64,000 nucleotides of DNA, taken from Virgisporangium aliadipatigenens (GTDB lineage Bacteria > Actinomycetota > Actinomycetes > Mycobacteriales > Micromonosporaceae). The position numbers and the translations under genes are program-made. This document shows, in pieces, positions 31,640 through 50,885 of this stretch; the first letter of the stretch is position 1; each line of letters begins with the position of its first letter. Location: assembly GCF_016863615.1 (NCBI RefSeq), contig NZ_BOPF01000007.1, positions 1 to 64,000 on the forward strand. Reading direction: 5' to 3'. Under the pieces are notes generated by a model, which was not told the origin of the DNA, did no database searches, and saw only the letters and a program-made list of their open reading frames with translations.

Positions 31640-32962
31640 TCAGCGCGGCCGGGTCGTCGCGGCGCACAGCACCGACTCCGCCAGTTCCCGCAGAAAAGCC
31701 CGCATCGACGGCGGCGGCAGGTACCGGGTGTCCGCGGTGAGCAGAACGCCGAGTCCGTCCGGGGTGTCGTGCAGCTCGACGCAGAACCGGCAGTGCATCA
31801 CGGCGGGATGCTCCTGGGCCCGGATCCGCGGCGCCGGCGGGCCGGCGGGCAGCGGGGCGTCGTCGGCGGAGAGCCGGACGTCGTTGAAGCAGCAGTGCGG
31901 GTCGACGACGGCGCCGCGCAGGCGGGACAGCTCGGCGGTGGCCGCGTCGCGCTCGCGCGGGTCGTAGTAGGCGCAGCGGTAGGCGCGCAGCGCGGCGTGC
32001 CGGGTGCGCGGCACCAGCTCCTCGAGATCGGCCTCCCCGGCCGTGTCCAGGACGAGCAGTCCCTGCATCACCAGCGTGCCGACGACGTCGGCGTACCCGG
32101 GCCGGAACCGGTTGTGGACCAGCGTGTGCATGGCGACCCGGCGATGCCCGGTCCACCGGCCGACGAGCGCCGCCGTGGCGGCCATCAGCACGGTGGCGGT
32201 GCCGGTCCGGTGCCGGCGGGCCAGGCTCAGCGCGGCCTCGGCGAGCGGGCGGCAGGTCAACAGGTGGCGCTGGTAGGGCGGATCGGCCGGCGCGCCGACG
32301 GCGGCGAACATCGTGACCGGGGCGGCGCGCAGCTGATCGGTCCAGTACCGGACGGCGCGGGCGCTGGTGGCCGTTCCGGCCGCCTCGGCGGGTGCGAGGT
32401 CGACCGGTTGCAGCCCGGTGAAGCGGGGCAGCCGGCCGCGCAGCAGGGCGAGGCGCAGGTCGCGCAGCAGCGTGTCGGCGGCGTAGCCGTCGACGGACAG
32501 GTGGCTCGCGACGAGTGCGATCCGGCGCACCCGGCCGTCGACGGTCACGAAGCCGACCCGCAGCGGGAGTTCCGCCGCGTGATCGAACGACCGGCGCCAC
32601 AGCCGGTCGCGCAGCTCGACGCCGGCGCGCTCCAGGGTCCCCGGGACGGCGTCGACGATCTCGATGTCGAGCCGTCCGCTCGGTTGCACGATCTGGCGCA
32701 ATCGGCCGTCGGGCGTCTCGTAGCGGGTCCGCAGCGCCTCGTACCGTTCGATGACCGTGCCGACGGCGGAGGCGGCCGAGGCCGGGGTCGCACCGGCCCG
32801 TTCCGACAGCGATATCAGGCGGCGCATGTTCAGGAAATGGTCGTTCGGTGCGAGCTGCCCGAGCGCCTTCCAAATGGAGCGCTGTCCCCAGGTCGGTGCG
32901 GTTTCCATTGCCCGGCCCCCGATGAATTCCGCGACCGCGTGCGCGGACTCCTGCGCAATCAT
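31640..32962 (-). CDS. Free-standing condensation-domain-like protein (paralogue 1)
   Basis: 440 residues, the size of one NRPS condensation domain. The N-terminal TWGQRSIWKALG and the active-site region SHLSVDG (153-159) show the fold. The canonical HHxxxDG keeps its second (catalytic) His154 and Asp158, but the first His is Ser153. The C-terminal part has AYRCAYYD and CCFNDVR motifs shared with the protein at 50882, its paralogue. No carrier or A domain is attached. It could make an amide or ester with a tethered intermediate, or recruit a partner. It is divergent from the biosynthetic operon and tail-to-tail with the GH5 gene. ATG 32962 starts the conserved region; the open frame continues upstream without support. 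Confidence 0.8.
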   Translation of the reverse strand: MIAQESAHAVAEFIGGRAMETAPTWGQRSIWKALGQLAPNDHFLNMRRLISLSERAGATPASAASAVGTVIERYEALRTRYETPDGRLRQIVQPSGRLDIEIVDAVPGTLERAGVELRDRLWRRSFDHAAELPLRVGFVTVDGRVRRIALVASHLSVDGYAADTLLRDLRLALLRGRLPRFTGLQPVDLAPAEAAGTATSARAVRYWTDQLRAAPVTMFAAVGAPADPPYQRHLLTCRPLAEAALSLARRHRTGTATVLMAATAALVGRWTGHRRVAMHTLVHNRFRPGYADVVGTLVMQGLLVLDTAGEADLEELVPRTRHAALRAYRCAYYDPRERDAATAELSRLRGAVVDPHCCFNDVRLSADDAPLPAGPPAPRIRAQEHPAVMHCRFCVELHDTPDGLGVLLTADTRYLPPPSMRAFLRELAESVLCAATTRPR

Positions 32963-33541: not shown

Positions 33542-33592
33542 GTGTCCAGGTATCCAAGCCACTGCCCGAGACGGCGACGGGCGCACCGGTGA
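33542..33592 (+). CDS. Short upstream frame (16 aa) coupled to the KMO-like gene
   Basis: GTG with an ideal GGAGG seven bases before it, encoding MSRYPSHCPRRRRAHR. Its TGA overlaps the GTG of the KMO-like gene (GTGA). The hydroxylase gene itself has no recognisable ribosome site, so ribosomes terminating here would start it. This is most likely a translational coupler or leader peptide and not a functional product. Confidence 0.4.
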   Translation: MSRYPSHCPRRRRAHR

Positions 33593-34953
33593 GCCGCCCG
33601 GGCTTACGCGCCCTGATCGCGGGCGCGGGTCTCTCCGGTTCCCTGCTGGCCGTCTACCTGGCCCGACGGGGCTACGACGTCGAGGTGTTCGAAGGCCGCG
33701 CGGACCCGCGCGCCGTCGCCGGCGGCGACGACCGCTCCATCAACCTCGGCATGTCGGCGCGGGGAATCCGTGCCCTGCGACGGGTCGAACTGTGGGACGC
33801 GCTCGCCCCGCGGCTCGTGCCGATGCGCGGCCGCATGATCCACCGGCCGGACGGCACGCTCGTGTTCCAGGCGTACGGCTCGCGTCCGGACGAGATCCTG
33901 CATTCGATCCGGCGCAACGAGCTCAACGCCTTCCTCGTCGACCGGGCCGAGAAGCACGCCGGGGTGCGGTTCCACTTCGGCCGGCGCTGCGTGTCGCTCG
34001 ACCGGGACACCGCCGCGCTGACCGTCGCCGACGTCCTGACCGGTGAACGGCGCACGCACCGGGGGGATTTCGTCGTCGGCGCCGACGGGGCCTTCTCCAC
34101 GGTCCGCCGGCGGATGCACCACGGGCTGCCGGTCGACTTCCAGCAGACGTTCATCGACTGGGGCTACAAGGAACTGACCATCCCGCCGCACGCCGACGGG
34201 TCGGCCCGCACGCCGATCGAGGCGCTGCACCTGTGGCCCAGTGACAACGGGCTCGTGGTCGGCCACCCGAACATCGACAACTCGATCACGTGCACCCTGC
34301 TGCTGCCGCTGGCCGCCGAACGGGGCACACCCAGCTTCGCCACCCTGCCGGACTCCGCCGCCGCGACGGCGTACGCGCGCGCCACGTTCCCGGACCTGCC
34401 GGGCCTGATCCCGGACTTCGCGGCGCAGTACGACGCGCATCCGGTCGCGCACCTGGTGACCGTTCGCACCGGCGCGTGGCACCACCGCGACCGGGTCGTC
34501 CTCGTCGGCGACGCCTGCCACGCCGTCACGCCGTTCTACGGCCAGGGGATGAATTCCGCCTTCGAGGACTGCCTGGTGCTGGACGAGTGCCTGAGCCGCC
34601 ACCCCGACGACCGGGCCGCCGCGTTCGCGCTGTTCCAGGCGCTGCGCCGGCCGCACACCGACGTGCTGGCCGACCTGTCCATGCGCAACTTCGTCGAGCT
34701 GCGCGACCGGGTCCGTTCGCCGCTGCATCTCGCCCGCGCCCGGGCCGACCTGCTGCTCAACCGGATGTTCCCGCGGCTGTGGCGGCCGCTGTACGCGATG
34801 GTGTCGCACAGCACCGTGCCCTACGGCGACGCGTTGCGCCGGGCCCGACGCCAGGACGCCGTGCTCGCGGTGACCGCGACCGCCGCGCTCACCGGCGCCG
34901 CGTGGGCGACCGCCGGGTTCGCGCGCCGCCGGAGTTTCCGGGGGAACCGATGA
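33589..34953 (+). CDS. FAD-dependent monooxygenase, kynurenine 3-monooxygenase-like
   Basis: 454 residues of group A flavin hydroxylase type. The Rossmann motif is GAGLSGSLLAVYLARRGY. The middle matches KMO: DRSINLGMSARG, MRGRMIH, EILHSIRRNELNAFL and the second FAD motif GDACHAVTPFYGQGMNSAFEDC. The C terminus has a hydrophobic helix (about 425-445) followed by Arg, reminiscent of the membrane anchor of eukaryotic KMO. Expected reaction: 3-hydroxylation of L-kynurenine or a halogenated analogue with NADPH and O2. No tryptophan dioxygenase, formamidase or kynureninase gene is in the window. The start at 33589 is imposed by the GTGA overlap with the short upstream frame. Confidence 0.88.
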   Translation: MSRPGLRALIAGAGLSGSLLAVYLARRGYDVEVFEGRADPRAVAGGDDRSINLGMSARGIRALRRVELWDALAPRLVPMRGRMIHRPDGTLVFQAYGSRPDEILHSIRRNELNAFLVDRAEKHAGVRFHFGRRCVSLDRDTAALTVADVLTGERRTHRGDFVVGADGAFSTVRRRMHHGLPVDFQQTFIDWGYKELTIPPHADGSARTPIEALHLWPSDNGLVVGHPNIDNSITCTLLLPLAAERGTPSFATLPDSAAATAYARATFPDLPGLIPDFAAQYDAHPVAHLVTVRTGAWHHRDRVVLVGDACHAVTPFYGQGMNSAFEDCLVLDECLSRHPDDRAAAFALFQALRRPHTDVLADLSMRNFVELRDRVRSPLHLARARADLLLNRMFPRLWRPLYAMVSHSTVPYGDALRRARRQDAVLAVTATAALTGAAWATAGFARRRSFRGNR

Positions 34954-37900
34954 ATGGGCGCGGGATTCCGGCGCGCGCACCGGGTGCGGCGGTGCCGCTC
35001 ACCCCGGCCCAGGAACGGCTGTGGTTCCTCGAGCGGGCCGGCTTCGACGGCGCGACGTACCACAACTGGTTCGCCCACCGGCTGCGTGGCCCGCTCGACG
35101 CCGCCGCGCTCTCCGACGCGATGGCCCTCGTGCTGCACCGCCACGACGCGATGCGCACCGCGATCGTCGACGTCGGCGGGCGGGCCCGGCAGGTGGTGCA
35201 CGATCGGGTCCCCGGTGCGTTGGAGCTGGTGGAGCTGCCGGCCGCCGGGGGCGAGTCGCGGCTGCGGGAGTTCGCCGCGGCGTTCGTGCGCCGGCCGTTC
35301 GACCTCGCGCGGCCGCCGCTGCTGCGCGCCGCGCTGGTGCGCCGCGCCGACGACGACCACGTTCTCGTGGTGTGCGTGCACCACATCGTGGCCGACGGCA
35401 CCGGCATCGGGATCCTGATGGCGGAACTGTTCACCGCCTACGGGGCGGCGGTCGAGGGGAACGCGCCGCGGCTGCCGGCGCCGGGCGTGCCGTTCGCCGA
35501 CTACGCCGCCTGGCTGGCCGGCTCCGGAGCGGACCGGCGCGCGGAGGATCGGGAGTACTGGCGAACGCACCTGGCCGGCGCCCTGCCGCTGAGCACCCTG
35601 CCCGCCGACCGGCCGCGCCCGGCGAGCCCGAGCCTGCGTTCCGGCCGGCACAGCGTGACGCTCGACGCCGACCTGGTCGCGAACGTGCGGACCCTCGCGC
35701 GCGCGGAACGCTGCACGCCGTTCGCGCTGTACCTCGCCGCGCTGTCGGCGGTGCTCGCCCGGCACACCGGCGAGGAGGACCTCGTCATCGGCACCCCGGC
35801 GGACAACCGGCACACGCCGGAGCTGGAACGCACCGTCGGCATGTTCGCCAACACCCTGGCGCTGCGGACCCGGCTCGAGGACAACCCGACGCTGCGCGAC
35901 GTGCTGCGCACGGCTCGCCGCACCGCGTTCGGCGGGGTCGGCCACCGGATGCTGCCCTTCGACGTGGTCGTCGACCTGGCCCGGGTGCACCGCGGGCTCA
36001 GCCACAACCCGCTGTTCCAGGTCATGCTCGTCGTCGAGCCCGACGGCTACGGCGACCTGCCGCTGCCGCCGGGGCTCCACGCGCGGGAGTGGGAACTCGG
36101 CGCGCCGCCGGCCCGCTTCGACCTGACGCTGATCGTCGTCAACGGCCCGCGGGTGACGTTCGTGGTGGACTACGCCGCCGAGCTGTACGAACCGGAGACG
36201 ATCGCGCGCTTCACCGACCACCTGATCCGGCTGCTGGCCGCGTTCGCGAGCGAGCCGGGGCAACGGCTCTGGGACGTCGACCTCGCCGGCGATGCGCACG
36301 CGGCGGCGCCGCCCCTCGCGCCGCCGGCGCCGTTCGTCACCGACCTGATCGCGGAGAGCGTCTCGGCCCATCCGGACAGCGTCGCGGTGCGCGGCGACGA
36401 CGCCTCCCTCACCTACGCGGAACTGGGCCGGCGCAGCACCGCGCTCGCCGCCCGGCTGCGTGAGCTCGGCACCGGCCCGGAAGACGTCGTGGCGGTCGTC
36501 GCACCGTCCACAGTGGACAGCATCGTGGCGCTGCTCGCCGTGCTGCGCACCGGCGGCGCCTACCTGCCGGTCGACCCGACGCACCCGCCGGGCCGGGTGG
36601 CGCGGCTGCTGGCCGACGCCGGGGTGCGCGTCGCGATCGCCGCGCCGCAACGGGCGGCGGTCCTCGCCGGGTTCACCGGTACCACGCTGTCTGCGGCGGA
36701 GTGCACCGCACCGGCCGACCTGCCCGCCGGATCCGTCGCCGGAGCGGAACAGCTGGCGTACCTGATCTACACGTCGGGTTCGACCGGCCGGCCGAAGGGC
36801 GTGCAGATCACGCACGGCACGCTGGCCCGGCTGACCCGGTCCTTTGTGGACATTCACCGGCTGCGGGCGGGCGACGTGCTGTTCATGGTGCCGCCGTTGA
36901 CGTTCGACGCCTCGGTGGGGGACGTCTTTCCGGCCCTGGCCGTCGGTGCCACGCTCGTCCTGCACCCGGAGCCGGCCCGGCTCGACGGGCCCGCGCTGCT
37001 GGAGTTCACCGCGCGACACGCGATCACCGCGATCGACGTGCCGGTGTCGTTGTGGCGCCGCTGGATCGGCGACTTCGCCACCGGCGCACCACCGCCGCCG
37101 GACTGGAGCGTGTCGACGGTGATGGTCGGCGGCGAACGGGTGCCGAACGCCGCGGTGCGCGCCTGGATCGAGGTCACCGGTGGGCGGGTCGCGCTGTTCA
37201 ACCACTACGGGCCGACCGAGGCGACGGTCTGCGCCACCACCCATCACGTGCCGGCCGGCGCGGCGCCGGAACCGGGCACCCATCTGCCGATCGGCCGGCC
37301 GCTGCCGCACGTGCGCGCCTACGTCCTCGGCCGGTACGGCAGCCACGCGCCGATTGGGGCGCCCGGGGAACTGCACCTCGGCGGCGACTGCCTGGCGCGC
37401 GGCTACCTGCACCAGCCGGAGCTGACCGCCGAGCGGTTCCCGCCGGATCCCTTCGCACCACAGGGAAACGGGCGGATGTACCGCACCGGCGACCTGGTCC
37501 GCCGGCGTGCGGACGGCGTCCTGGAGTTCCTCGGCCGGGTCGACCGCCAGGTGAAGATCAACGGCCATCGGATCGAACCGGCGGAGGTCGAGGCGTCCGT
37601 CGCGGCCCATCCGGAGGTCACCGACGCGGCCGTGATCGCCGGGACCGACCCGGCCGGCCGGGACCGGCTGCTCGCCTACGTGGTGACCGGCGACGGGCGG
37701 GTGCCGCACGGGCTGCGCCGGTTCCTGCGCGCGCACCTGCCGGATCCGCTGATCCCGTCGGTCTTCACGGCGGTGCCCGCCATCCGCCGCACCGCGCACG
37801 GCAAGCTCGACGAGGCGGCACTCCCGCCCGTGGTCGACCCGGCCGCCGCGCCGGTCGTCGACCGTCCACAGGGGACGGTGGAGACCGCGGTGGCCGATGC

Positions 37901-39299
37901 GTGGGAACGGGTTCTCGGCGTCAGCCCCGGCCGGCACGACAACTTCTTCGCCCTCGGCGGGCATTCGCTCCTCGTCGCCGGTGTGCTCGCCGAGGTGCAC
38001 CGCGTGCTCGGCGTGGAGCTGCCGCTGCGGGTGATGTTCGAGACGGCCGACCTCGCCGAGTTCGCCCGGACGATCGCCGGCGGACCCGCCACCGACGACG
38101 AACCGGACCTGCGCGCGGAGGCGGTCCTGCCGGAGGACATCGTCCCGGCCCCGGCGCGGATCCCGGCCGCGACGGGCGCCCCGACGATCCTCCTGACCGG
38201 CGCCACCGGCTTCCTCGGCGCGTACCTCGTGGCCGAACTGATCGCCCGCACCGACGCGACCCTCGTCTGCCTGACCCGCGCCGACGAACCCGCGCACGCC
38301 GTCGAGCGGGTACAGCGCAACCTGCGCCGCTACGGCCTCGAACCGGTCGATCCGGGGCGGCTCGTCGGACTGCCCGGCGACCTCGGCGCACCCGGACTCG
38401 GGCTGGCCGCCGCCGACCTCGCCGACCTGGCCGCCCGGGTGGACGTCGTCTGTCACAACGGCGGCCTGGTCCACTTCGGCGAGCCCTACCACCGGCTCCG
38501 GCCGGTCAACGTCGACAGCACCGTCGAACTGCTGCGCCTGGCCGCCCGCGCCGGCGGCGTGCCGGTGCACCTGGTCTCCACGCTCGGCGTCTACCTCGGC
38601 AAGGCCTACCTCGACGAACGGGTCCGGGAACAGGACCCGCCCGAGGACCCGACCGGCGTCACCGGCGGCTACAACCGGAGCAAGTGGGTCGCCGACGCGC
38701 TGGCCCGGCAGGCCCGGCAACGCTGGCTGCCGGTGTCGGTGCACCGCCCGGCCCGGGTCAGCGGGCACAGCCGCACCGGCGCGGCCAACCCGGACGACCA
38801 CTTCAGCCGCACGCTCGCCACCTGCGTCCGACTCGGGATGGTGCCCGACCTTCCCTACGAGGAGGACCTCGCACCCGTCGACTACGTGGCCGCCGGCATC
38901 GCCCGGGCCGTCGAGACGTCGTTCGTCGAACCGGACGCCGCCGACCACCACTACTTCAACCCGGCCACCATCAGCTACGCCGAGATCGCCGCCGCCCTGC
39001 GCGAGCACGGCCACCCGGTCGCACTCGTGCCGTGGAAACGTTGGCGCGCAACGCTTCTCGACGCCCGCGCGCGCGGCGAGGCGGTGCCGCTGGACCCGTT
39101 CGTCGCGGTGCTGCCCGAGGAGACGCCGCAGCACCGGCGGCCGCGCTTCGACTGTTCGGGGACCGAACGCGCGCTCGCGGCCGCCGGCATCACCTGCCCG
39201 CCGGCCGACCGGGCACTGCTGCGCCGCCAACTCGACGCGCTGACCGCCGCCGGACTCGTCCCGCCCGCAGCCGCGGCGGCCTCAGGAGGAACGCCATGA
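34950..39299 (+). CDS. NRPS: condensation-adenylation-carrier-reductase (C-A-T-R)
   Basis: 1449 residues. C domain (about 12-445) has intact HHIVADG (144-150). A domain (about 463-960) has [31 protein letters not shown] and the A10 Lys in AHGKLDE. Reading the specificity pocket by eye against PheA gives D-A-G-D-M-G-H-V-C-K. Asp235 is present, so an alpha-amino acid is expected, but I cannot match the code. The carrier Ser is about 1006 (GGHSLL). The R domain (about 1077-1440) has the NADPH motif [11 protein letters not shown] and catalytic Tyr1241/Lys1245 (YNRSK). It is the terminal module, releasing aldehyde or alcohol. Its start overlaps the KMO-like stop, and its stop overlaps the MFS start. 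Confidence 0.93.
36507..36519. repeat. Iterated 13-bp palindrome GTCCACWGTGGAC
   Basis: Perfect copy in the A domain of the C-A-T-R NRPS, reading Ser-Thr-Val-Asp with the rare Thr codon ACA. Confidence 0.6.
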
Positions 39300-40654
39300 C
39301 GATCGCGACCGAACGCGGTGACGTGCTCCGCTTCGTCGGCATCTGGCTCACCTCCGTCGTCTCCGGGGTCGGCTCGGCGCTCACCGGGTTCGTCTTCGGC
39401 GTGTGGGTGTACCGGACGACCGGCTCGGTGACCGGCTTCGCGCTGATGATGCTCGCCTCGGTGCTGCCGAGCGTCCTCGTGGGCCCGTTCGCCGGCGTGG
39501 CCGTGGACCGCTTCGACCGGCGCCGGGTCCTCGTGCTCACCGACACCGTCGCCGCCGTGTCGACCGCCGCGGTCGGCCTCCTGTACCTCTCCGGCGACCT
39601 GCGGGTGTGGCACCTGTACGCGGCCGGTGCGGTCGGCGCGACGTGCGGGACGTTCCACCTCACCGCGTACCAGGCGATGACGCCGCTGCTGATCCCCAAG
39701 CGGCACCTCGGCCGGGCGAACGGCTTCATGCAGGCCTCCTGGGCGGCCCAGATCGCCGCGCCGCTGGTCGCCGGCACGCTGCTCGCCACGATCGGCATGG
39801 GCGGGGTGATCGTCGTCGACCTGGTCACCTTCGCCGTCGCGGTCGCCGCCCTGCTCGTGGTGCGGCTGCCGGCCGGCGTGCTGCGGCCCGAACGGCCGGC
39901 CGAGGCGCCGACGCTGCGCGGCGACCTGTCGTTCGGGCTGCGGTTCCTGCGCCGCCACGGCGCGCTGCTCGGGCTGGTGTCGGTGCTGACCGGGTTCAAC
40001 TTCGCGTTCGCCGCCGCCGGGATGCTGGTGCAGCCGCTGATTCTCTCCTTCACCGGCGTCGCCACCCTGGGTGTGCTGATGTTCGCCGGGGGCAGTGGGC
40101 TCTTCGCCGGGGCGATGACGATGAGCGCCTGGGGCGGGCCGCGCCGCAAGACCTTCGGGGTCGCCGCGTTCACCCTCGTCGGCGGGCTGGCCATGGCGGC
40201 GCACTCGCTGCGGCCCTCCGCGCTGCTGATCGGGGTGCTGGCGCCGGCGTTCCTGTTCACGCTGCCGGTCGTCAACGGCTGCGCGAACACGGTGCTGCAG
40301 CTCAAGGTGCCGACCGAGGCGCTGGGGCGGGTGCTGGGCACCGCGCACATGCTGAGCCAGGGCGCCACGCCGATCGCCTACCTGCTGGCCGCGCCGGTGG
40401 CGCAGTTCGTGGCCGAACCGGCGCTGCGTCCCGGCGGTGCGCTGGCCGGCAGCGTCGGGCGGCTGGTCGGTGTCGGGCCCGGGCGGGGCATCGCGGCGAT
40501 GTTCCTGGTGACGGGTGCGCTGCTGGTGATCCTGGCGGCCGTGGTCGCGTTCGTGCCCGCGCTGCGGCGGGTCGAGGTCGACCTGCCAGACGCCGGCACC
40601 GACGCCGACCCGGTGCGCGTCTCGCCGAGTGCCGAGGCTGCGGGCGTTCCCTGA
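39296..40654 (+). CDS. MFS exporter (MFS_3/EntS-like)
   Basis: 452 residues with about 12 membrane spans. The loop motif after helix 2-3 (GPFAGVAVDRFDRRRVLVLTD) is characteristic of the MFS_3 group that includes the enterobactin exporter EntS and many macrolide or siderophore exporters. It probably exports the cluster product. The start overlaps the NRPS stop (ATGA) with AGGAGG upstream, so it is co-translated. Confidence 0.9.
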   Translation: MTIATERGDVLRFVGIWLTSVVSGVGSALTGFVFGVWVYRTTGSVTGFALMMLASVLPSVLVGPFAGVAVDRFDRRRVLVLTDTVAAVSTAAVGLLYLSGDLRVWHLYAAGAVGATCGTFHLTAYQAMTPLLIPKRHLGRANGFMQASWAAQIAAPLVAGTLLATIGMGGVIVVDLVTFAVAVAALLVVRLPAGVLRPERPAEAPTLRGDLSFGLRFLRRHGALLGLVSVLTGFNFAFAAAGMLVQPLILSFTGVATLGVLMFAGGSGLFAGAMTMSAWGGPRRKTFGVAAFTLVGGLAMAAHSLRPSALLIGVLAPAFLFTLPVVNGCANTVLQLKVPTEALGRVLGTAHMLSQGATPIAYLLAAPVAQFVAEPALRPGGALAGSVGRLVGVGPGRGIAAMFLVTGALLVILAAVVAFVPALRRVEVDLPDAGTDADPVRVSPSAEAAGVP

Positions 40655-40701: not shown

Positions 40702-41802
40702 GTGCCGTTGGACCTTTCCCCGGACGAGGCGCACGCGTACCTGCGGGCCGGGGACGCGCCCACGCCGATGCTGGACCTGATCGGCCTGATGGCCGCGCGG
40801 GCGGCGGCGGTCGGGACGGAACTGGGCGTCTTCGACGCGCTCGGCGCGGGACCGCGCGGCGCCGCGGAACTCGCCGCCGAACTGGCGGCCGATCCGGTCG
40901 GGCTGCCCGCCCTGCTCGACGTGCTGGTCGCGGTCGGCTACCTGAGCCACGACGGGCACTCCTACGCCAACCGGCCGGCCGCCGATCGGTGGCTGCGCGG
41001 CGACTTCGCGAACGTGCTGACGCTGTGGGTGTCGATCGTCGGCGACCTGTGGGGCGACCTGGCGACGACGCTGCGCGGCGGCACCCCGCACGTCGACTTC
41101 TACACCTGGCTCGCCAAGGAACCCGACCGGCTCGAACGCTTCCAGCGGCTGCAACGCGGCCTCGCCGGACAACTGGCGGCGGAGGTGGTCGAGCGCGCGC
41201 CGCTGCCGCCGAACGCCACCCGCCTGCTCGACCTCGGTGGCGGGCACGGCGGCTACAGCGTCGCGTTCTGCCGGCGGCATCCCGGGTTGGCGGCCACGGT
41301 GCTGGACCTGCCGGCGGCCCTGCCGGTCGGCGCCTCGAGCGTCGCCGCGCAGGGGCTGGCCGAACGGATAACGTTCCGCGCCGGCGATCTGGCCCACCGC
41401 GTGGACGAGCGCGACCACGACGTCGTGCTGCTCTTCAACGTGGTGCACGGATTCGCCGAGGAACGGGCCCGGGCCCTGGTGTGCGCCGCCGTGGCGGCGG
41501 TCCGGCCGGGCGGCACGGTCCTGGTGCTCGAGACGGCGCCGCTGCCGAATGCGTCCACTGTGGACGATGCCTTCACCCGCTGCTTCTCGCTCAACCTGTG
41601 GCATACCCAGGGCGGGCGGGTGTATCCACCGGCGACGCTGGCCCGCTGGCTGGTCGAGGCGGGCTGCGAACCGCCGGAAACCGTTGCGCTGCAACGCTCT
41701 CCGTCACACGTCCTGCTGACGGCCCACCGGGCCGCGGCCGGAATCGGCGGCGGTGCCGCGGTTGAGGGAGGTCGCACGCTGATGGAGGGAAGCGCGTCAT
41801 GA
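40702..41802 (+). CDS. SAM-dependent O-methyltransferase
   Basis: 366 residues of the class I small-molecule O-methyltransferase family (Methyltransf_2 type). An N-terminal helical dimerisation/winged-helix part (about 1-110, ELGVFDALGAG) precedes a Rossmann domain with the SAM motif LLDLGGGHGGYS. The acidic/polar strand LFNVVHGF stands where plant-type OMTs have a catalytic His: NVVHG supplies that His. It may methylate the phenolic OH created by the KMO-like enzyme, which is inference from context. GGAGG precedes the GTG at 40702. Its stop overlaps the flavin reductase ATG. Confidence 0.88.
   Translation: MPLDLSPDEAHAYLRAGDAPTPMLDLIGLMAARAAAVGTELGVFDALGAGPRGAAELAAELAADPVGLPALLDVLVAVGYLSHDGHSYANRPAADRWLRGDFANVLTLWVSIVGDLWGDLATTLRGGTPHVDFYTWLAKEPDRLERFQRLQRGLAGQLAAEVVERAPLPPNATRLLDLGGGHGGYSVAFCRRHPGLAATVLDLPAALPVGASSVAAQGLAERITFRAGDLAHRVDERDHDVVLLFNVVHGFAEERARALVCAAVAAVRPGGTVLVLETAPLPNASTVDDAFTRCFSLNLWHTQGGRVYPPATLARWLVEAGCEPPETVALQRSPSHVLLTAHRAAAGIGGGAAVEGGRTLMEGSAS
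41553..41565. repeat. Iterated 13-bp palindrome GTCCACWGTGGAC
   Basis: Perfect copy in the methyltransferase gene, reading Ser-Thr-Val-Asp with the rare codon ACT. Confidence 0.6.
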
Positions 41803-42329
41803 ACGGCGTCACGGGGGCCGAGTACCGGGCGCTGATGAGCGCGTTCCCGACCGGGGTCGCGGTCGTCACCGCGCTCGACGCGGCCGGGCAGCCGCACGGC
41901 ATGACCTGCACGTCACTGAGCAGCGTGACGGTCGACCCGCCGACCCTGCTCGTCTGCCTCGACGTGCGCAGCGGCACCCTCGCCGCGATCCGCGCCGGCG
42001 GCTGGTTCGCCGTCAACCTGCTGCACGAGGACGCCCGCGACGTCGCGGAACTGTTCGCGGCACCGGTGCCCGACCGGTTCCGCCGCACCGCGTCCCGGCC
42101 GTCGCCGACCGCCGGCGTCCCCTGGCTGACCGGCGCCGCGATGGCCGTGGCCGAGTGCCGGGTCAGCCGCCGGATCGGCGCCGGCGACCACGACGTCGTC
42201 TTCGGCGAGGTCGTGACGACGGCACACACCGGCGATCCGCCGCTGCTCTACGGCCACCGCCGCTTCTGCGCCTGGCCGGGCGGCGGGTCCGCCCCGGCGG
42301 CGGCGCTCGCCACGGAGCCGGGCCGATGA
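41799..42329 (+). CDS. Flavin reductase (HpaC/RebF-like)
   Basis: 176 residues of the short-chain flavin reductase family. Motifs: FPTGVAVVTA, GMTCTSLSSVTVDPPTLLVCL and the closing YGHRRF. It makes free FADH2 from NAD(P)H and FAD for two-component flavoenzymes. The tryptophan halogenase at 44541 needs exactly this partner, so that pairing is likely. The gene is coupled by 4-base overlaps to both neighbours. Confidence 0.9.
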   Translation: MNGVTGAEYRALMSAFPTGVAVVTALDAAGQPHGMTCTSLSSVTVDPPTLLVCLDVRSGTLAAIRAGGWFAVNLLHEDARDVAELFAAPVPDRFRRTASRPSPTAGVPWLTGAAMAVAECRVSRRIGAGDHDVVFGEVVTTAHTGDPPLLYGHRRFCAWPGGGSAPAAALATEPGR

Positions 42330-43807
42330 CGGCGCCGGGCGCCCGATGGCGGCTCTTTCCCGCCCGCGGCGTCGAGGCCGGGCGTGGTGCCGGCGCCCGG
42401 AGGCGGGGCGGGCGGCTCCCCAGGGCCGTGGTCGCGCTGGTCGCCGTCGCGGCGCTCGTCGCGCTGACCCCGCGCCTGGTGGCCGGCACCGGGGACGGCA
42501 CCGGACCCGGCGGCCTCGACCCGCTGGCCCGGTTCCTGCTGGCGGCCGCGGTCGTCGTCTTCGTCTGTCACGCGTGCGGCGCGCTGCTGCGCCGGTTCCA
42601 TCAGCCGGCCGTGGTCGGCGAGGTGCTCGGCGGCATCGTCCTCGGCCCGTCGGTCCTCGGTGCGCTCTGGCCGAACGGCACGGCGGCGCTGTTCACCGCC
42701 GAGGTGCGCTCGGCGCTGGGCCTGGCCGCCCAGCTCGGCCTGGTGACGTTCATGTTCCTGCTCGGCTGCGAACTGCGGCTCACCGGCCTGGCGGCACGGC
42801 GGCGCACCGTGGCCGTCGTCGTCACCGGCGCGATGGGCCTGACCCTCGTCGCCGGGGTCGTGGTGGCGCTGCTCGGCCACCGGCTCATCGGCGGTTCGGC
42901 GCAGCGGCCGGTGACGGTGCTGTTCTTCGGGCTGGCGCTGTCGATCACCGCGCTGCCGGTGCTGGCGCGGATCCTGGCGGACCTCGGCCTGACCCGCACG
43001 CCCCTCGGCGGGCTGGCGATCAGCTGCGCGGCCGCCGGTGACGTGGTGCTGTGGCTCGGGCTGACCGCGTTGCTGGGCGTGGCCGGGGTGGGCGGCTCGG
43101 GTGCGTTCGCCGCGACGGCCGGCGCCGTCGCTGCGCTGCTGCTCGTCACCGTGCTCTGGATCCGGCCGGCGCTCGCCGCGCTCGTGCGGTGGGCCCAGCG
43201 CCGCCCGGACGCCACCCAGCTCCTGCTGCCGGTGCTCGTCGGCGGGGCCATCGCGTACGCGGCCGCCACCCAGGTCGTCGGGCTGCACCCGGTGCTCGGG
43301 GCGTTCGTGTTCGGCCTCGCCGTACCCCGCGACTCGGCCGCCGTCGAACACGTCAACGACCGGCTGCGCGGGTTCACCATGGCGGTGCTGCTGCCGCTGT
43401 TCTTCGCCGGCATCGGGCTGGCCACCTCGGTGGCCCTGCTGGGCGGCGAACCCGCGCGCTGGCTCTTCTTCGCCGGCGTGATCCTGGCCGCTTCGGGCGG
43501 CAAGTTCCTCGGCGCCGGCGTCGGCGCGCGGCTGGCCGGCCTGCCCCGGCGGGACACCCTGCGGCTGGGTGTGCTGCTCAACTGCCGGGGCGTGACCGAG
43601 ATCGTGGTCGCGGCGATCGGCTGGCAGTACCACCTCGTCAACGACTTCGGCCTGACCGTACTGGTGCTCGTCGCACTCGTCACGACGGCGATGACCGGGC
43701 CGCTGATGAACGTCCTCGGCGACCCGGCCCCGGCGCCTACGGAACGGAAACCGCCCGACGGGCGGACTCCTCGGCCGCGGACAGCCGCTGCGCCCAGTGG
43801 GCGTTGA
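42326..43807 (+). CDS. Cation/H+ antiporter (CPA2, KefB-like)
   Basis: 493 residues with about 13 membrane spans. The CPA2 motifs are clear: HQPAVVGEVLGGIVLGPSVLG, FMFLLGCELRL, ALSITALPVLARIL and GLHPVLGAFVFGLAVPR. The N-terminal tail is Arg-rich. Such antiporters occur in some NRPS/PKS clusters and may drive export or balance ions for self-protection. Its role here is uncertain. It begins inside the flavin reductase stop and its last 71 bases run opposite the end of the unknown gene at 43737. Confidence 0.87.
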   Translation: MTAPGARWRLFPARGVEAGRGAGARRRGGRLPRAVVALVAVAALVALTPRLVAGTGDGTGPGGLDPLARFLLAAAVVVFVCHACGALLRRFHQPAVVGEVLGGIVLGPSVLGALWPNGTAALFTAEVRSALGLAAQLGLVTFMFLLGCELRLTGLAARRRTVAVVVTGAMGLTLVAGVVVALLGHRLIGGSAQRPVTVLFFGLALSITALPVLARILADLGLTRTPLGGLAISCAAAGDVVLWLGLTALLGVAGVGGSGAFAATAGAVAALLLVTVLWIRPALAALVRWAQRRPDATQLLLPVLVGGAIAYAAATQVVGLHPVLGAFVFGLAVPRDSAAVEHVNDRLRGFTMAVLLPLFFAGIGLATSVALLGGEPARWLFFAGVILAASGGKFLGAGVGARLAGLPRRDTLRLGVLLNCRGVTEIVVAAIGWQYHLVNDFGLTVLVLVALVTTAMTGPLMNVLGDPAPAPTERKPPDGRTPRPRTAAAPSGR

Positions 43808-44363
43808 GTCCGGCGCCGAAGACCTGACGGTAGCGGGCCAGGTAGTCCAACCGGACCCCCGGCGGGATGTCGGGCATGCAGAAGAAGGCGAGGTCGGCGA
43901 CCACCATGTGGCGCACCCCGAACAAGGGCAGCGGGCTGTCGAACGGCCGGAATTGCCTGCTGTGCAAACCGACCGCCTCGTGCGCCGGCCAGAAGTCGCC
44001 GGCCATGAAACCCCCGGAGACGAACTCGGCCCGCACCGTGGCGTGCACCCGGCCCACCATCGCCCGCAGCAGCGGATCGGGCAGGCCGTACGGCACCGCG
44101 ACGCGCACCAGGTACACGCGGTCGGCGCCCACCCGCGCCGCGGTGTCGGCCACGTCGTCGCGCAGCCGCCGCACGAACGCCACCATCGCCCCGTCACCGC
44201 TGCGCGCGTCGAACGGGTGGCAGGTCAGGTGTTCGCGGCGAAGCGCCCGGGTGGTGTACGGGCAGACCACCCCGTCGCGCCCCAGATCCGGATGCGGATT
44301 GGTCGTGAACTCGGCGATCCACCGCTTCGCCCGTTCGATTCTTTCCGACGCTTCGCTGGACAT
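43737..44363 (-). CDS. Unknown cluster protein (DUF6875-like)
   Basis: 208 residues, soluble. Motifs I associate with DUF6875 proteins found in NRPS/PKS clusters include NPHPDLGRDGVVCPYTT near the N terminus and FWPAHEAVGLHSRQFRP in the middle, with a Cys-Pro that could be catalytic or metal-binding. The family name is from memory and unchecked, and no activity is known to me. The ATG at 44363 has AAAGGG eight bases upstream; a TTG two codons earlier is less likely. It is divergent from the halogenase and overlaps the antiporter 3' end by 71 bases. Confidence 0.65.
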   Translation of the reverse strand: MSSEASERIERAKRWIAEFTTNPHPDLGRDGVVCPYTTRALRREHLTCHPFDARSGDGAMVAFVRRLRDDVADTAARVGADRVYLVRVAVPYGLPDPLLRAMVGRVHATVRAEFVSGGFMAGDFWPAHEAVGLHSRQFRPFDSPLPLFGVRHMVVADLAFFCMPDIPPGVRLDYLARYRQVFGAGLNAHWAQRLSAAEESARRAVSVP

Positions 44364-44534
44364 CGGCAACCCTTTCCGGAAGTCGTGGGAGGTGTGTCGG
44401 CTGTCATCGTAATCAATTACTCATGCCGTTTGAACAGCCAAAACGTGCGTCTCGAAAGGGCGTACGACGAATAGACGTGCCTAATTGGAAAAGCGGAAAC
44501 GCCCGCTCGGCCGTCGAGAAAGAAAGGTGTGTAG

Positions 44535-46111
<1,577 letters not shown>

Positions 46112-46112
<1 letters not shown>

Positions 46113-47626
46113 TGTCCACAGTAGACGGTGCCGGTGCGCGGACCGTGCCGGCACAGCTCGCCACCCGGGCCGCGCAGGAGCCGGACCGGGTGGCGGTCCG
46201 CACGCACGGGGTCGACGAGCTGACGTTCGCGCGGTGGCACGGGCGCGCGCTGGCGGTGGCCGCCGGCCTGCGGGCCCGTGGCGTCCGGCGCGGCGACCGG
46301 ATCGTGCTGCACTTCGGGGCCCGGCACTGGGTCGACTTCGCCGTGGCCTACTGCGGCGTGCAGGCGGCCGGCGCCGTCGCGGTGCCGTGCGCGGACCGGC
46401 TCGCCCCGGCCGGGCTGCGGCACGTCGCGGCCGACTGCGCACCGGTCGGCTTGCTGCACGCCGCCGGTGCGGCGCCGCCGGCGTTCCCGGCCGGTTGGGT
46501 GTCCACTGTGGACGATGCGGCGGCGCTCGCCGGTGCGCCGGTCGACATCGGCGCCGTGCGGCCGGGCGACCCGGCGCAGATCCTGTACACCTCCGGCACC
46601 ACCGGCCGGCCGAAGGGCGTCGTCGCCAGCCACGCCAACCTCATGGCCGGCGTCGCCACGGATCCGCGCCGGCGGCCGCTGGCCCACTCGACGCACTTCC
46701 TGCACGCGTTCCCGATCGGCACCAACGCCGCGCAGACCATGCTGCGCAACGCGCTCGACGCCCGCCCGACCGCGCTGACCCTGCCGCAGTTCACGCCGGT
46801 GCGCTTCGCCCGGCTGATCGAGCACTACCGCGTGGGCACGGTCTTCGTGGTGCCGTCGACGGCCGTCGAACTTCTCGGTTCCGGCGCCCTCGACCGCCAT
46901 GACACGTCGAGCGTGCTGCTGCTCGGTTCGACCGCGGCCGCCCTGCCGCCGGCGGTCGCGGCCGCGCTGGCAAAGGCGTTCCCGGCGGCGACGATCGTCA
47001 ACTACTACACCTCGACCGAGGCGGCGCCGGCACAGACCAGCATGGTCTTCGACCCGGCCCGGCCGGACTCGGTGGGGTGGGCGCCGGCCGGCTCGCTGCG
47101 CGTCACCGACCCGGCGGGGCGCCCCGTCCCGCCCGGCACCGCCGGCGAGGTCTGGCTGCGTTCGCCGTACCCGCGCGGCTATCACGCCGACGCCGGCGCC
47201 ACCCGCGAGGTGTTCCGGGACGGCTGGGTGCGGATGGGCGACGTGGGCCGGCTCGACCCGGACGGCTACCTGTACCTGCTGGACCGCCGGCAGGACGTCG
47301 TGAAATCGGGCGCGTACAAGGTTTCCACGCTTCAGGTGGAGGCGGCGATCCACGAGCACCCGGCCGTCCGCGACGTCGCCGTGTTCGGTGTGCCGCATCC
47401 CGTTCTGGGCCACGAGGTGGCGGCCGCGCTGGTCTGCGCCGGGCCGCTCACCCTCGCCGAGCTGCGGGCATTTCTGGTCGAACGACTCAGCGCCCACGAG
47501 GTTCCGACAAAGATTCTGACGCTCGAGCACCTCCCGCGAAACGCCGGCGGCAAGGTGCTCAAGCGGGAGCTGGCCGCCCTGCTCGGGACGGCCGCCGACC
47601 ACGCGCACCCGGAGGTAGGCCGATGA
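46112..47626 (+). CDS. Stand-alone AMP-forming ligase (adenylation enzyme)
   Basis: 504 residues of the ANL superfamily. Core motifs: ILYTSGTTGRPKGVVASH, NYYTSTEAAP (in place of YGxTE), MGDVGRLDPDGYLYLLDRRQDVVKSGAYKVS and the C-terminal catalytic Lys in GGKVLKREL. It lacks the NRPS-type Asp235 context, resembling acyl- or aryl-acid CoA ligases. With the discrete carrier protein at 50628 it could load a carboxylic-acid starter unit; that role is inferred. It overlaps the halogenase by one base and the NRPS by four. Confidence 0.85.
46501..46513. repeat. Iterated 13-bp palindrome GTCCACWGTGGAC
   Basis: Perfect copy in the ligase gene, again Ser-Thr-Val-Asp. A one-mismatch copy lies at the very start of the same gene (46114-46126). 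Confidence 0.6.
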
Positions 47627-50600
47627 CGCAGGCAACGCCCGCCCAGCACGGGATCTGGCTCACCGAGCGCTCCGGCGACGCCGGCACGGCCTACCACCTG
47701 GCGCTGACCGTCCGGCTCGACGGGCCGCTCGACGAGCCCGCGCTGCGCGCCGCGTGTGCCGCCGTGCTGGCCCGGCACGAGCCGTTGCGCAGCGCCGTCG
47801 CCGAGACGAACGGCGTGGCGCACCTCGTGCCGGCGCCGGTGCCGCCCACGCTCGCCCGCACCGCCCTGGACGACCCGCTCGTCGCCGAGGCGCTCACCCG
47901 GCCGTTCGACCTGGAGCGCGGTCCGTTGGCCCGCTTCGTTCTCGCCGGCGAGGGCGAACGGCACCTGCTGCTGTTCGTGGCGCACCATCTCGTCTTCGAC
48001 GGCATGTCCAAGGACATCCTGGTGCGCGAACTGGCCCGGTCCTACGCCGGCGCCACGGATCCGGCGCCGCCGCCGCGCCCGCACCCGCCGGCGGTGGACC
48101 CGGGGGAGGCCCGCGCCTTCTGGCGCACGCGGTGGCGCGACACCACCGAGGTGCTGCTGCCGCACCTGGGCCGCCCGCCGGCGGGCCCGCGACCCGGCGC
48201 CACCGTGCGGTTCACGCTCGACGCGCCGCTTTCCGAGGCGATCGACCGCGGCGCCCGCAAGCTCGGCGTGACCCGGTTCGAACTGCTGCTCACCGCCGTG
48301 CACGCCGTGCTGCGCCGCTACGGCAACACCGACGTCCCGGTCGCGGTCGACGTCTCCACCCGCACCCCCGAGGTCGCGGAGCACATCGGGCTGTTCGTCA
48401 ACGAACTGCCGATCGCCGTGGCCGCGCCGGAGGACGTCACGTTCGCCGACCTCGCGACGGCGGTGCGCGCCGAACTGCGGGCCGCGTACCGGTTCCGGGC
48501 GGTGCCGGTGGCGCACGCCGTCGGCGGGATGCGTCCCCGGACGGCGCTCGCGCCCGTGTCGGTCAGCTATCGGCGGCGCGCGCCGCAGCCGCAGTTCGTC
48601 GGAGTGCGCGCCGAGGTCGACTGGGCCGTCTTCGCCGGCACCGCGCGCAACGCGCTGCACCTGCAGTTCGTCGACGCGGCGGAGGGGCTGGACGTGAGCC
48701 TGCGGTTCGCCCCGGACAGCCTCCCGGTCGAGGCGGCCGAACGGATCGCCGGGCACCTGCGCACGTTCCTGGCGGCGGCGGTGCGCGAACCCGACGTGGC
48801 CGTGCGCGACCTGCTGCTGCTGCCGGCCGACGAGGAGGCGCTGCTGCTGCGGGAGTGGAACGACACCCGGCGCGACTACCCCGACACCACGCTGCCGGCG
48901 CTGTTCCGCGCGCAGGCCCGCCGGACCCCGCGGGCGGCGGCGGCCGTGTGCGGCGACCGGACGGTGACCTACGCCGAGCTGGACGCCGCCGGCGGTGCGC
49001 TCGCCGCCCGCCTCCGGGCCCGTGGCGTCGGCCCCGGCGCCCTGGTCGCGATCTGTGTCGAACGCTCGCTCGACCTGCTCGTCGCGCTGCTCGCCGTGAC
49101 GCGCGGCGGCGCCGGTTACGTGCCGGTCGACCCGGCCTATCCGGCCGCCCGGCGGGCCCTGATCCTCGACGACGCCCGCCCCGCGGTGGTCCTCACGACG
49201 CGTGCGCACGCCGCCGACCTGCCGCCCGGACACGACGTGCTCCTCCTCGACGCGCCCGCCGACGGGCCCACCGCCGCCGGCTCCTGCGCCGGCCCGAACG
49301 GCGACGACACCGCCTACGTGCTGTACACCTCCGGTTCGACCGGGCGGCCGAAGGGCGTGGACGTGCCGCACAGCCGGCTGACCAACTTCCTGCTGGCGTT
49401 CCGCGACGCGCTGGCGGCCGGCCCGGGTGACACCTGGCTGGCGCTGACCTCGCCGTCGTTCGACATCTGCGCGCTGGAGCTGTACCTGCCGCTGATCACC
49501 GGCGGCCGCGTGGTGATCGTCCCGGAACGCGACGCGCGGGATCCGGCCGCCCTCGTGCGACTCGTCCGCGAGCGCGGGGTGACGCACGTGCAGGCGACCC
49601 CGTCGGGCTGGCGCGTGCTGCTCGACGGCGGCTTCGGCGCCGCCGGCCGCGAACCGGTGGTGGCCGTGTGCGGCGGCGAGGCGCTGCCGGCACCGCTCGC
49701 GCGGACGCTGCGCGCGCGGGTGGGTCGGCTGTTCCACGCCTACGGGCCCACGGAGACCACGGTCTGGTCCACCCTCGACGAGATCCCGGAACCGGTCGGC
49801 GAGGTCACCATCGGGCGGCCGGTGGCCAACACCCGGGTGTACCTGCTGGACGGGCGGCAGCGGCCGGTCCCGATCGGGACGGCGGGGGAGGTGTGCGTCG
49901 GCGGCGCCGGCGTCGCCCGCGGGTACGTCGGCCGCCCGGAGCTGACCGCCGAGCGGTTCGTCCCCGACCCGTGGGCGCCGGGCGGCCACCTGTACCGCAC
50001 CGGTGATCTCGCCCGGTACCTGCCCGACGGGCGGCTGGTCTTCCTCGGCCGTTCCGACAGTCAGGTCAAGATCCGCGGACATCGGGTCGAGTGCGGCGAG
50101 ATAGAGGCGCGGCTGCTGGAACATCCGCGGGTCGCCCAGGCGGCGGTGATCCTGCGCGACGACCCCGACGACGACGGACCCCGGCTGGTCGGCTACGTCG
50201 TCCCGCGCGGCGACCCACCCACCCCGGCGGCGCTGCGGGAGCACCTGGCCGACACCCTGCCCGCCGCGGTGATCCCGACCGGATGGCTCTTCCCGCAACG
50301 GTTCCCGCTCACGCCCAACGGCAAGCTCGACCGCTCCGCGCTGCCGGCCCCGGCCCGCGAGCCGGCATCGCAGGCCCCGCGAGCGACCGGCGGCGACGAC
50401 GCGGTGATCGAGACGATCCGGATGGTCTGGCGCGAGGTCCTGCAGCTCGACGAGGTCGGCGACGACGAGGACCTGTTCGACCTCGGCGGGCACTCGCTGT
50501 CCATCACCCGCATGATGACCCGCATCCAGCAGCAGCTCGGGGTGGCCCTGCCGCTTGAGGTCTTCTACGACACGCCGACCGTCGCCGAGATCGCGGTCGA

Positions 50601-50631
50601 GGTGCGGCGGCGCAAGGAGGTGCACCGATGA
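47623..50631 (+). CDS. NRPS: condensation-adenylation-carrier (C-A-T), glycine-like code
   Basis: 1002 residues. C domain (about 4-420) with intact HHLVFDG (121-127). A domain (about 425-910) with [36 protein letters not shown] and NGKLDR. The pocket read by eye is D-I-L-Q-V-G-A-V-W-K, starting at Asp614. This differs from the published glycine code DILQLGLIWK at three conservative positions, so glycine is the likely substrate. The carrier Ser is 958 (GGHSLS). There is no release domain, so the chain passes to another module, presumably C-A-T-R. GGAGG precedes the ATG, which overlaps the ligase stop. Confidence 0.92.
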   Translation: MTQATPAQHGIWLTERSGDAGTAYHLALTVRLDGPLDEPALRAACAAVLARHEPLRSAVAETNGVAHLVPAPVPPTLARTALDDPLVAEALTRPFDLERGPLARFVLAGEGERHLLLFVAHHLVFDGMSKDILVRELARSYAGATDPAPPPRPHPPAVDPGEARAFWRTRWRDTTEVLLPHLGRPPAGPRPGATVRFTLDAPLSEAIDRGARKLGVTRFELLLTAVHAVLRRYGNTDVPVAVDVSTRTPEVAEHIGLFVNELPIAVAAPEDVTFADLATAVRAELRAAYRFRAVPVAHAVGGMRPRTALAPVSVSYRRRAPQPQFVGVRAEVDWAVFAGTARNALHLQFVDAAEGLDVSLRFAPDSLPVEAAERIAGHLRTFLAAAVREPDVAVRDLLLLPADEEALLLREWNDTRRDYPDTTLPALFRAQARRTPRAAAAVCGDRTVTYAELDAAGGALAARLRARGVGPGALVAICVERSLDLLVALLAVTRGGAGYVPVDPAYPAARRALILDDARPAVVLTTRAHAADLPPGHDVLLLDAPADGPTAAGSCAGPNGDDTAYVLYTSGSTGRPKGVDVPHSRLTNFLLAFRDALAAGPGDTWLALTSPSFDICALELYLPLITGGRVVIVPERDARDPAALVRLVRERGVTHVQATPSGWRVLLDGGFGAAGREPVVAVCGGEALPAPLARTLRARVGRLFHAYGPTETTVWSTLDEIPEPVGEVTIGRPVANTRVYLLDGRQRPVPIGTAGEVCVGGAGVARGYVGRPELTAERFVPDPWAPGGHLYRTGDLARYLPDGRLVFLGRSDSQVKIRGHRVECGEIEARLLEHPRVAQAAVILRDDPDDDGPRLVGYVVPRGDPPTPAALREHLADTLPAAVIPTGWLFPQRFPLTPNGKLDRSALPAPAREPASQAPRATGGDDAVIETIRMVWREVLQLDEVGDDEDLFDLGGHSLSITRMMTRIQQQLGVALPLEVFYDTPTVAEIAVEVRRRKEVHR

Positions 50632-50885
50632 GCCCGTCGCGCGTGCGGGAACGCCTCGCCGAACTGGTCGCGGTCGCCAGTGACGGCGCGGTCCCGGCCA
50701 CGGCCGCGTCGGCGCCGGACGCGTCGCTGGGCGCGCTCGGGCTGACGTCACTGGGCTACCTGCGCCTCGCCGACGCCGTCGAGCAGGAGTACGGCGTCGA
50801 ACTGGACCTGGGGCTCGTCGCCGCGCTGGACACCCTCGACGGGTTGGTGGAGCAGATCGCGGCGCTCGATCCCGGCCGGCCGTGA
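50628..50885 (+). CDS. Discrete peptidyl/acyl carrier protein
   Basis: 85 residues, a single carrier domain. The phosphopantetheine site is Ser41 in LGLTSLGYLRL, with the usual amphipathic helices on either side (ending VAALDTLDGLVEQIA). It needs activation by a PPTase encoded elsewhere. As a free carrier it is the natural partner of the stand-alone ligase and one of the free-standing condensation-like proteins. It overlaps both neighbours by four bases. Confidence 0.88.
   Translation: MSPSRVRERLAELVAVASDGAVPATAASAPDASLGALGLTSLGYLRLADAVEQEYGVELDLGLVAALDTLDGLVEQIAALDPGRP

Follow-up and report, generated by a model that had tools for sequence, protein, structure and literature searches.

Condensation (C) proteins that stand free of a modular synthetase are known from several pathways. 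VibH of vibriobactin biosynthesis is a free-standing C protein with a soluble amine as acceptor. Bamb_5915 of the enacyloxin system, which we take to be the free-standing protein in PDB 6cgo, has the C fold, and the entry title names condensation-mediated chain release. In the X and interface domains of other NRPSs the catalytic motif has been lost and a partner protein is bound. SgcC5 of the C-1027 enediyne pathway (PDB 4znm) forms both ester and amide bonds, according to the accessible text of PMC10212144, a paper that, like PMC12304814, also covers ester-forming C domains of the SgcC5 and other types. OaaC, an FAA condensation domain (C_FAA) of gut bacteria, is described in the accessible portion of PMC13142362 as a homodimer, with a small free carrier and a stand-alone adenylation enzyme encoded alongside it; C_FAA domains keep the second His and the Asp of the active-site motif, the first His is often Asp, and the Gly after the Asp is often Ser or Ala.

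Here we analysed a 64,000-nt stretch of contig NZ_BOPF01000007.1 of Virgisporangium aliadipatigenens (the window; genome 10.3 Mb), in which two free-standing condensation-like proteins, CF1 and CF2, flank a biosynthetic gene cluster (Table 1). Both are real and had been correctly described by a first-pass annotation of this DNA, and both belong to a broad clade of free-standing condensation-like proteins, hereafter Cfree. By analogy, OaaC-type enzymes are their closest working analogue, and the C_FAA-type gene set recurs here as the ligase, the small carrier and CF2, linked in relatives as well. Compared by described motif, DHCATDA of CF2 fits the (D/H)HxxxDS pattern with its Asp and Ala variants, whereas SHLSVDG of CF1 departs from it and carries the Ser that is usual at this position in Cfree; the OAA cluster is described as comprising three free-standing proteins (PMC13142362, accessible text), to which Cfree clusters add a C-A-PCP module and often a second. 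SgcC5 is free-standing like CF1 and CF2 but keeps the first His (HHTAADA) and lies outside the clade; Bamb_5915 likewise keeps both histidines (HHIIVDA) and serves a polyketide system. The fungal LCL-A subtype (SHxxxDxx) shows the same His-to-Ser swap, a likeness by motif description (PMC10212144, accessible text). Judged from sequence, we lean towards CF1 and CF2 being catalytically active condensation enzymes of a distinct clade that would act in trans, by the mechanism outlined below.

Table 1 Features around CF1 and CF2, in window positions (active-site bases derived by hand; residue numbers from alignment A2 for CF1 and A3 for CF2)
Feature	Position	Strand	Basis
CF1, free-standing condensation-like protein, 440 aa, SHLSVDG	31640..32962	-	Pfam Condensation and motifs
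CF1 active-site codons S-H-L-S-V-D-G (His154, Asp158)	32486..32506	-	motif and alignment A2
FAD monooxygenase, divergent from CF1	33589..34953	+	NCBIfam VioC 201.6 bits, under cut-off 760
M2, C-A-PCP-R NRPS, in-line C HHIVADG, terminal thioester reductase-like NAD_binding_4	34992..39299	+	Pfam and motif
MFS transporter	39296..40654	+	domain match, longer frame
Methyltransferase (Methyltransf_2)	40702..41802	+	domain match, longer frame
Flavin reductase	41799..42329	+	domain match
Na+/H+ exchanger-like membrane protein	42428..43807	+	domain match, longer frame
DUF6875 protein	43737..44369	-	domain match
Flavin-dependent tryptophan halogenase	44535..46112	+	Trp_halogenase 468 bits
Stand-alone AMP ligase, acyl/aryl-acid type, 493 aa	46145..47626	+	AMP-binding (longer frame)
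M1, C-A-PCP module, in-line C HHLVFDG	47623..50631	+	Pfam and motif
Free-standing carrier, 85 aa, ...LGLTSLG... serine motif	50628..50885	+	PP-binding 35.2 bits
CF2, free-standing condensation-like protein, 443 aa, GTG start, DHCATDA	50882..52213	+	Pfam Condensation and motifs
CF2 active-site codons D-H-C-A-T-D-A (His154, Asp158)	51338..51358	+	motif and alignment A3
FAD-dependent DAO-family oxidoreductase, convergent with CF2	52203..53498	-	domain match
Aminotransferase-fold PLP enzyme; nearest NCBIfam PRK07324, GntC, VioD, all below cut-off	53495..54622	-	

With third-position GC of 0.89 (CF1) and 0.95 (CF2), both look like genuine coding genes. CF1 starts at the ATG at 32962, and its longest open frame extends to 33139. 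The two proteins are paralogous, as had been proposed: BLASTP aligns them at 148/409 identical residues (36%, E 2e-54), and both exceed the gathering cut-off of 30.6 bits for Pfam Condensation (PF00668), CF1 with 82.4 bits in its longer frame and CF2 with 45.4 bits. A CF2 query against its own genome, which holds 11 Condensation matches in all, returned CF1 at 209 bits, followed by in-line NRPS domains alone (33.7 and 25.3 bits). The motifs that had been singled out as common to the pair stood up to a six-frame check of the window: WGQxxIWKA, SFDHAxELPLR and AYxxAYYD each match twice, once per protein, and CF1 and CF2 hold two of the three FNDxR matches. None of the four was found in the window's two in-line C domains or in six-frame translations of seven other C-domain loci checked in the same genome. 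With some variation, they characterise a whole family rather than the CF1/CF2 pair. The active sites read as quoted in the first-pass annotation: the second His and the Asp are present in both proteins, the first His is gone from both and the Gly from CF2, so that neither carries the HHxxxDG of canonical in-line LCL-type C domains found in both modules of the window. A Pfam LSDAT_prok match of CF2 lies below its cut-off and was set aside as chance, as were matches to the design protein 'Cake'.

Beyond CF1, the cluster runs from the divergent VioC-like FAD monooxygenase, which we take to be kynurenine 3-monooxygenase-like, through M2, the MFS transporter, methyltransferase, flavin reductase, antiporter, DUF6875 protein, halogenase, ligase, M1 and carrier to CF2. 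Four-base overlaps join ligase to M1 (ATGA), M1 to carrier (ATGA) and carrier to CF2 (GTGA), and thereby tie CF2 to the ligase and the carrier. The PDB chains nearest the ligase are fatty-acyl-CoA and feruloyl-CoA synthetases. Read by eye against the usual A-domain motifs, it lacks the Asp that holds an amino group; it probably activates a plain acid and is the probable loader of the free carrier. The A-domain motifs of M1 and M2, also read by eye, gave no safe substrate, and for this reason we propose no product. Two condensations suffice for three carriers, and both can come from the in-line C domains, which would leave the free C proteins surplus. The DAO-family oxidoreductase and the GntC/VioD-like PLP enzyme downstream may supply an extra group handled by CF2. 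There are hints that DUF6875 is linked with this type of ligase: it adjoins the halogenase here, and DUF6875-like stretches (36% and 33%) lie beside the ligases of two multimodular clusters (L138:10795-11310, L141:11084-11572).

Phylogenetic analysis placed the family apart from the in-line domains. In a FastTree tree of 155 rows, a branch with support 100 separates all 99 Cfree sequences from the other rows, and IQ-TREE gathers the free-standing rows on one branch at 100/100 in both a 65-row and a 50-row set. In-line domains of the own genome and of relatives, SgcC5, Txo1 and fuscachelin were included in all three trees, TycC, DhbF and Bamb_5915 in the 50-row tree; none contained Starter, Cyc, PapA or FAA references. 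Against these in-line domains and references, the separate clade that had been predicted is thus recovered at support 100 three times, and Cfree does not fall inside the in-line C-domain clade. The C-domain phylogeny suggested as a check accordingly sets CF1 and CF2 outside the in-line LCL domains used, in a comparison without Starter references. SgcC5 lies on the in-line side, where it groups with similar-sized proteins of L058 and L062 (support 98); a Cfree plus SgcC5 clade was not rejected as an alternative (p-AU 0.493), the SgcC5 sequence being partial. Bamb_5915 is sister to Cfree at 97/95 in the 50-row tree and at 98/99 after removal of eight long rows, a placement drawn from a stretch of 298 residues and involving long branches. 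Among PDB entries, profile A1 scored Txo1 at 111.5, SgcC5 at 102.7, EpoB at 59.0, the RzmA starter domain (7c1h) at 26.5 and CDA synthetase I (4jn3) at 22.1 bits. SgcC5 is the top phmmer match of CF1; for CF2, a sequence search ranked TycC best among PDB C domains (31.2 bits), with SgcC5 behind (27.2 bits). The predicted models are of low confidence (pLDDT 63.7 for CF1, 63.2 for CF2). Foldseek returned only C, E or X domains of the C fold among the best 50 matches per model, headed by 6cgo (Bamb_5915) for CF1 and 4znm (SgcC5) for CF2; with TM scores of about 0.4 on such models, the ranking is weak evidence and tells little beyond the C fold.

A sequence entered the Cfree set when a Cfree profile scored it above an in-line profile and the piece was longer than 300 residues, which makes the set a selected sample; its rows lean towards ligase clusters. 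Its alignment comprises 100 rows (99 non-redundant sequences). The first position of HHxxxDG is Ser in 72/100 aligned rows, Asp in 3/100 and His in 1/100, which makes SHLSVDG normal for the family and DHCATDA a rarer variant. The second His is kept in 97/100 and the Asp in 99/100; the three rows without the second His have one Gln, one Arg and one gap, and the Gly after the Asp is lost in many members. Among 54 in-line rows, His occupies the first position in 53 and the second in 50. Given the conserved second His and Asp, SHxxxD is unlikely to mark an inactive enzyme. The same conservation bears on the idea that Cfree is a non-catalytic recruitment domain holding a halogenase, monooxygenase or methyltransferase near the carrier: the missing first His, the Gly lost in many members and the tailoring flavoenzymes of the window cluster would suit such a role, but the two retained residues do not, nor does the distribution of the putative clients, since among the relatives' loci compared a KMO match was seen at G595 only and a halogenase match nowhere (the G595 halogenase was found separately). 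We regard recruitment as the least probable of the readings considered.

Relatives are widespread. At E 1e-40 or better, CF1 has relatives in at least 81 of 354 genomes of the taxonomic family, and at E 1e-20 CF2 has them in 28 of 298 genomes of the order (own genome counted in both). A single-sequence scan of genome contigs had led to one locus, in Kitasatospora phosalacinea (L034); whole-genome searches gave far more. The most family-rich genomes, G401 and G399, hold 20 and 12 matches (CF1 query, E 1e-20). Members in annotated plasmid records are unannotated or named just 'condensation domain-containing protein' or 'condensation protein', and a literature search, with subscription journals mostly outside its reach, found no title or abstract describing the clade.

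The relatives opened combine Cfree with a C-A-PCP module, a small carrier and a ligase of about 52-70% identity across its main piece; Embleya sp. NBC_00896 is a named relative with similar gene order. Cfree lies within 25 kb of the ligase in 45 of 47 places for ligases scoring at least 550 bits (at least 44 before a re-search) and in 70 of 88 places for those of at least 450 bits (at least 66 before). The re-search, confined to the 22 genomes holding unlinked ligases, added G582, G363, G569 and G401, each with one Cfree within 25 kb; in L134 (G363) and L135 (G582) the distance is 12-14 kb. For 18 of the 88 ligases no Cfree was found within 25 kb, and the unlinked ones opened (L136, L137, L138, L141) belong to multimodular NRPSs in which a single protein carries ligase, PCP and C. 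Conversely, 104 of 150 Cfree places are linked to a ligase, among the matches listed. A genome of the same genus, G595, carries a counterpart of the CF1-to-carrier part of the cluster (identities: CF1 55-57%, halogenase 86%, ligase 70%), with its CF1 orthologue at the same place. A TGA inside the G595 CF1 match proved to be the terminal stop. The genes next to the carrier of G595 encode a protein of 518 aa that has no Pfam match and one that is glycosyltransferase/O-antigen-ligase-like; the DAO oxidoreductase and PLP enzyme were not found beside it.

The release domain of the NRPS has been swapped between clusters that are otherwise alike, with TE and a fused MFS in relatives and a reductase with a separate MFS in the window and G595 (L035-L045, L109-L119 and L132 compared; TE and MFS scanned in two NRPSs, the others by tblastn). 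NRPSs of about 1850 aa with a C-terminal MFS fusion occur in L035, L038, L041, L042 and L043, the size in L041 being over-called. In L039 and L041 the NRPS seems to be extended at its N-terminus, but these extensions are gene-caller artefacts antisense to the didomain. The Cfree gene on the carrier side is adjoined by a DMFA2_C (dimethylformamidase beta-like) gene in three loci (L129:14001-15953, L133:5545-7392, L045:7234-9174); L128, L130, L131 and Embleya L142 have genes at this position that are similar, as judged by size.

CF1 and CF2 had been suggested to act as a pair. Fused or adjacent Cfree pairs occur in at least 35 cases among the matches listed, including fused didomains of about 930-960 aa (e.g., L035, L038), which favours the suggestion; against it, G595 has no CF2, and among the matches listed, at the threshold on which such counts depend, 34 of the 66 linked ligases scoring 450 bits or more have a single Cfree, with 29 having two and 3 having three. 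Pairing is thus common and not obligatory. For the dimerisation or cyclisation also entertained in the first-pass annotation we found no specific support. A stricter form of the idea, an obligate heterodimer in which CF1 and CF2, or the two didomain halves, make up one enzyme with one catalytic and one structural partner, could draw on these pairs, on the didomain halves forming two subclades of nearly matching membership, and on the homodimeric state of OaaC (PMC13142362, accessible text). It appears improbable in view of CF1 standing alone in G595, the 34 ligase-linked loci with one Cfree, and the His and Asp present in both didomain halves. CF1 and CF2 also lie outside both subclades, and the idea that they correspond to the two didomain halves of relatives was rejected on this ground.

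The two copies seem to have different histories. CF1 groups with its G595 orthologue (100/99), and its branch is short beside that of CF2 (0.44 versus 1.31), whose highest identity is 41%. A whole-genome search of G595 gave CF1 at 197.5 bits and nothing further above 50 bits. Carrier-adjacent Cfree proteins fall in separate branches of the tree (CF2; L005 and L006; L113 and L013; L090), which suggests that such copies arose by repeated duplication. The long branch, the DHxxxDA motif and the lack of a copy in G595 could also mean that CF2 is a decaying or neofunctionalising duplicate without current role, leaving CF1 as the one that matters. We consider this rather unlikely, as CF2 has an intact open frame with third-position GC of 0.95, retains the active-site His and Asp, and begins in overlap with the carrier gene. 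On the preferred reading, CF1 would be the conserved pathway member and CF2 a fast-evolving extra copy, probably serving a second, lineage-specific acylation.

Nine minimal clusters (L104, L107, L114, L122-L125, L139, L140) contain ligase, C-A-PCP, carrier and Cfree, with no TE or R match by tblastn. On the same contig in these genomes, PF00975 matches are absent up to 100 kb away and PF07993 matches up to 80 kb away (the G586 contig being 27 kb); as only these two models were checked, another kind of hydrolase may have been missed. As a control, G381, G383, G384 and G388 each hold another copy of the ligase with a TE 2-4 kb off. With neither TE nor reductase near these nine ligase-carrier clusters, product release may fall to a condensation enzyme. 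Eight of the nine also encode a canonical free C protein, which could take this role instead of Cfree; in L114, no further C protein was seen within the 20 kb examined. In L122-L125, L139 and L140, a 391-aa gene adjoins the canonical free C protein, and a glycosyltransferase was identified in the one scanned; its proximity makes a sugar hydroxyl one possible acceptor.

These clusters also weigh on ordinary chain elongation in trans, in which Cfree would join two carrier-bound substrates, one on the free carrier and one on a module PCP, as a separate polypeptide. In its favour, the Condensation model recognises the members scanned, and the ligase clusters opened have carriers and C-A-PCP modules nearby. 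Yet the amide bonds between the three carriers are already accounted for by the in-line C domains, the clade is separate and without the first His, and the minimal clusters would be left without a release step, so that we hold elongation in trans to be unlikely.

Most likely, by analogy with OaaC, SgcC5 or Bamb_5915, CF1 and CF2 are active, carrier-dependent acyl-transfer enzymes working in trans. The ligase would activate a carboxylic acid and load it onto the free carrier; Cfree would then use His154 and Asp158 to pass an acyl or acyl-peptidyl group from the carrier to an acceptor that is probably not presented by the in-line module, possibly a free amine or hydroxyl; the bond formed would be an amide or an ester. 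In the smallest relatives, this transfer may also release the product. Catalysis, the carrier as donor, a soluble acceptor and ester or amide as product are points that we infer. Of the proposed ester or amide transfer with a chemistry of its own, what stands is its plausibility, which derives from the conserved His and Asp, the linkage to ligase and carrier, and the surplus of free C proteins.

A broader reading is tentative and, in our estimate, doubtful: Cfree could be a large uncharacterised class that transfers from a carrier to a soluble acceptor, with loss of the first His marking an off-carrier acceptor. In minimal clusters Cfree would replace release by TE or reductase, the fused didomains would be two-reaction release machines bis-acylating one acceptor, and CF1 and CF2 would have arisen independently as an unfused form. 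If Cfree is indeed a release and acylation enzyme, clusters that seem incomplete for want of a TE or R become readable, and product prediction for them changes. Ligase, carrier and Cfree would, if the proposal is true, form a small soluble acyl-transfer kit for engineering. The role of the first His is testable in parallel lineages, namely the Cfree clade, the gut C_FAA enzymes and fungal LCL-A domains.

The family also occurs in other settings. Of 30 further loci scanned (L034, L046-L074, including L051, a ligase cluster), 12 have a small carrier near Cfree, several of the matches being weak, and 18 have none in view. Nine hold two or more Cfree, not counting L058 and L062, in which the second protein groups with SgcC5. 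Pfam scans of chosen neighbour genes revealed discrete activating enzymes and tailoring genes in three of these cluster types, and in Streptomyces anulatus a discrete adenylation enzyme and a carrier lie near the family member. Six of the 30 loci (L046-L050, L054) encode a class-II tRNA-synthetase-like protein, which we take to be a probable amino acid:carrier ligase. Loci of this type combine it with two or more Cfree, and a small carrier is present in L048-L050; tailoring genes in the two scanned include AurF-like, radical SAM, E1/transketolase and glycosyltransferase genes. Tandem, overlapping Cfree-like genes occur in another context (L074:7862-11385, L071:7188-10690), about 4 kb from weak small-carrier matches.
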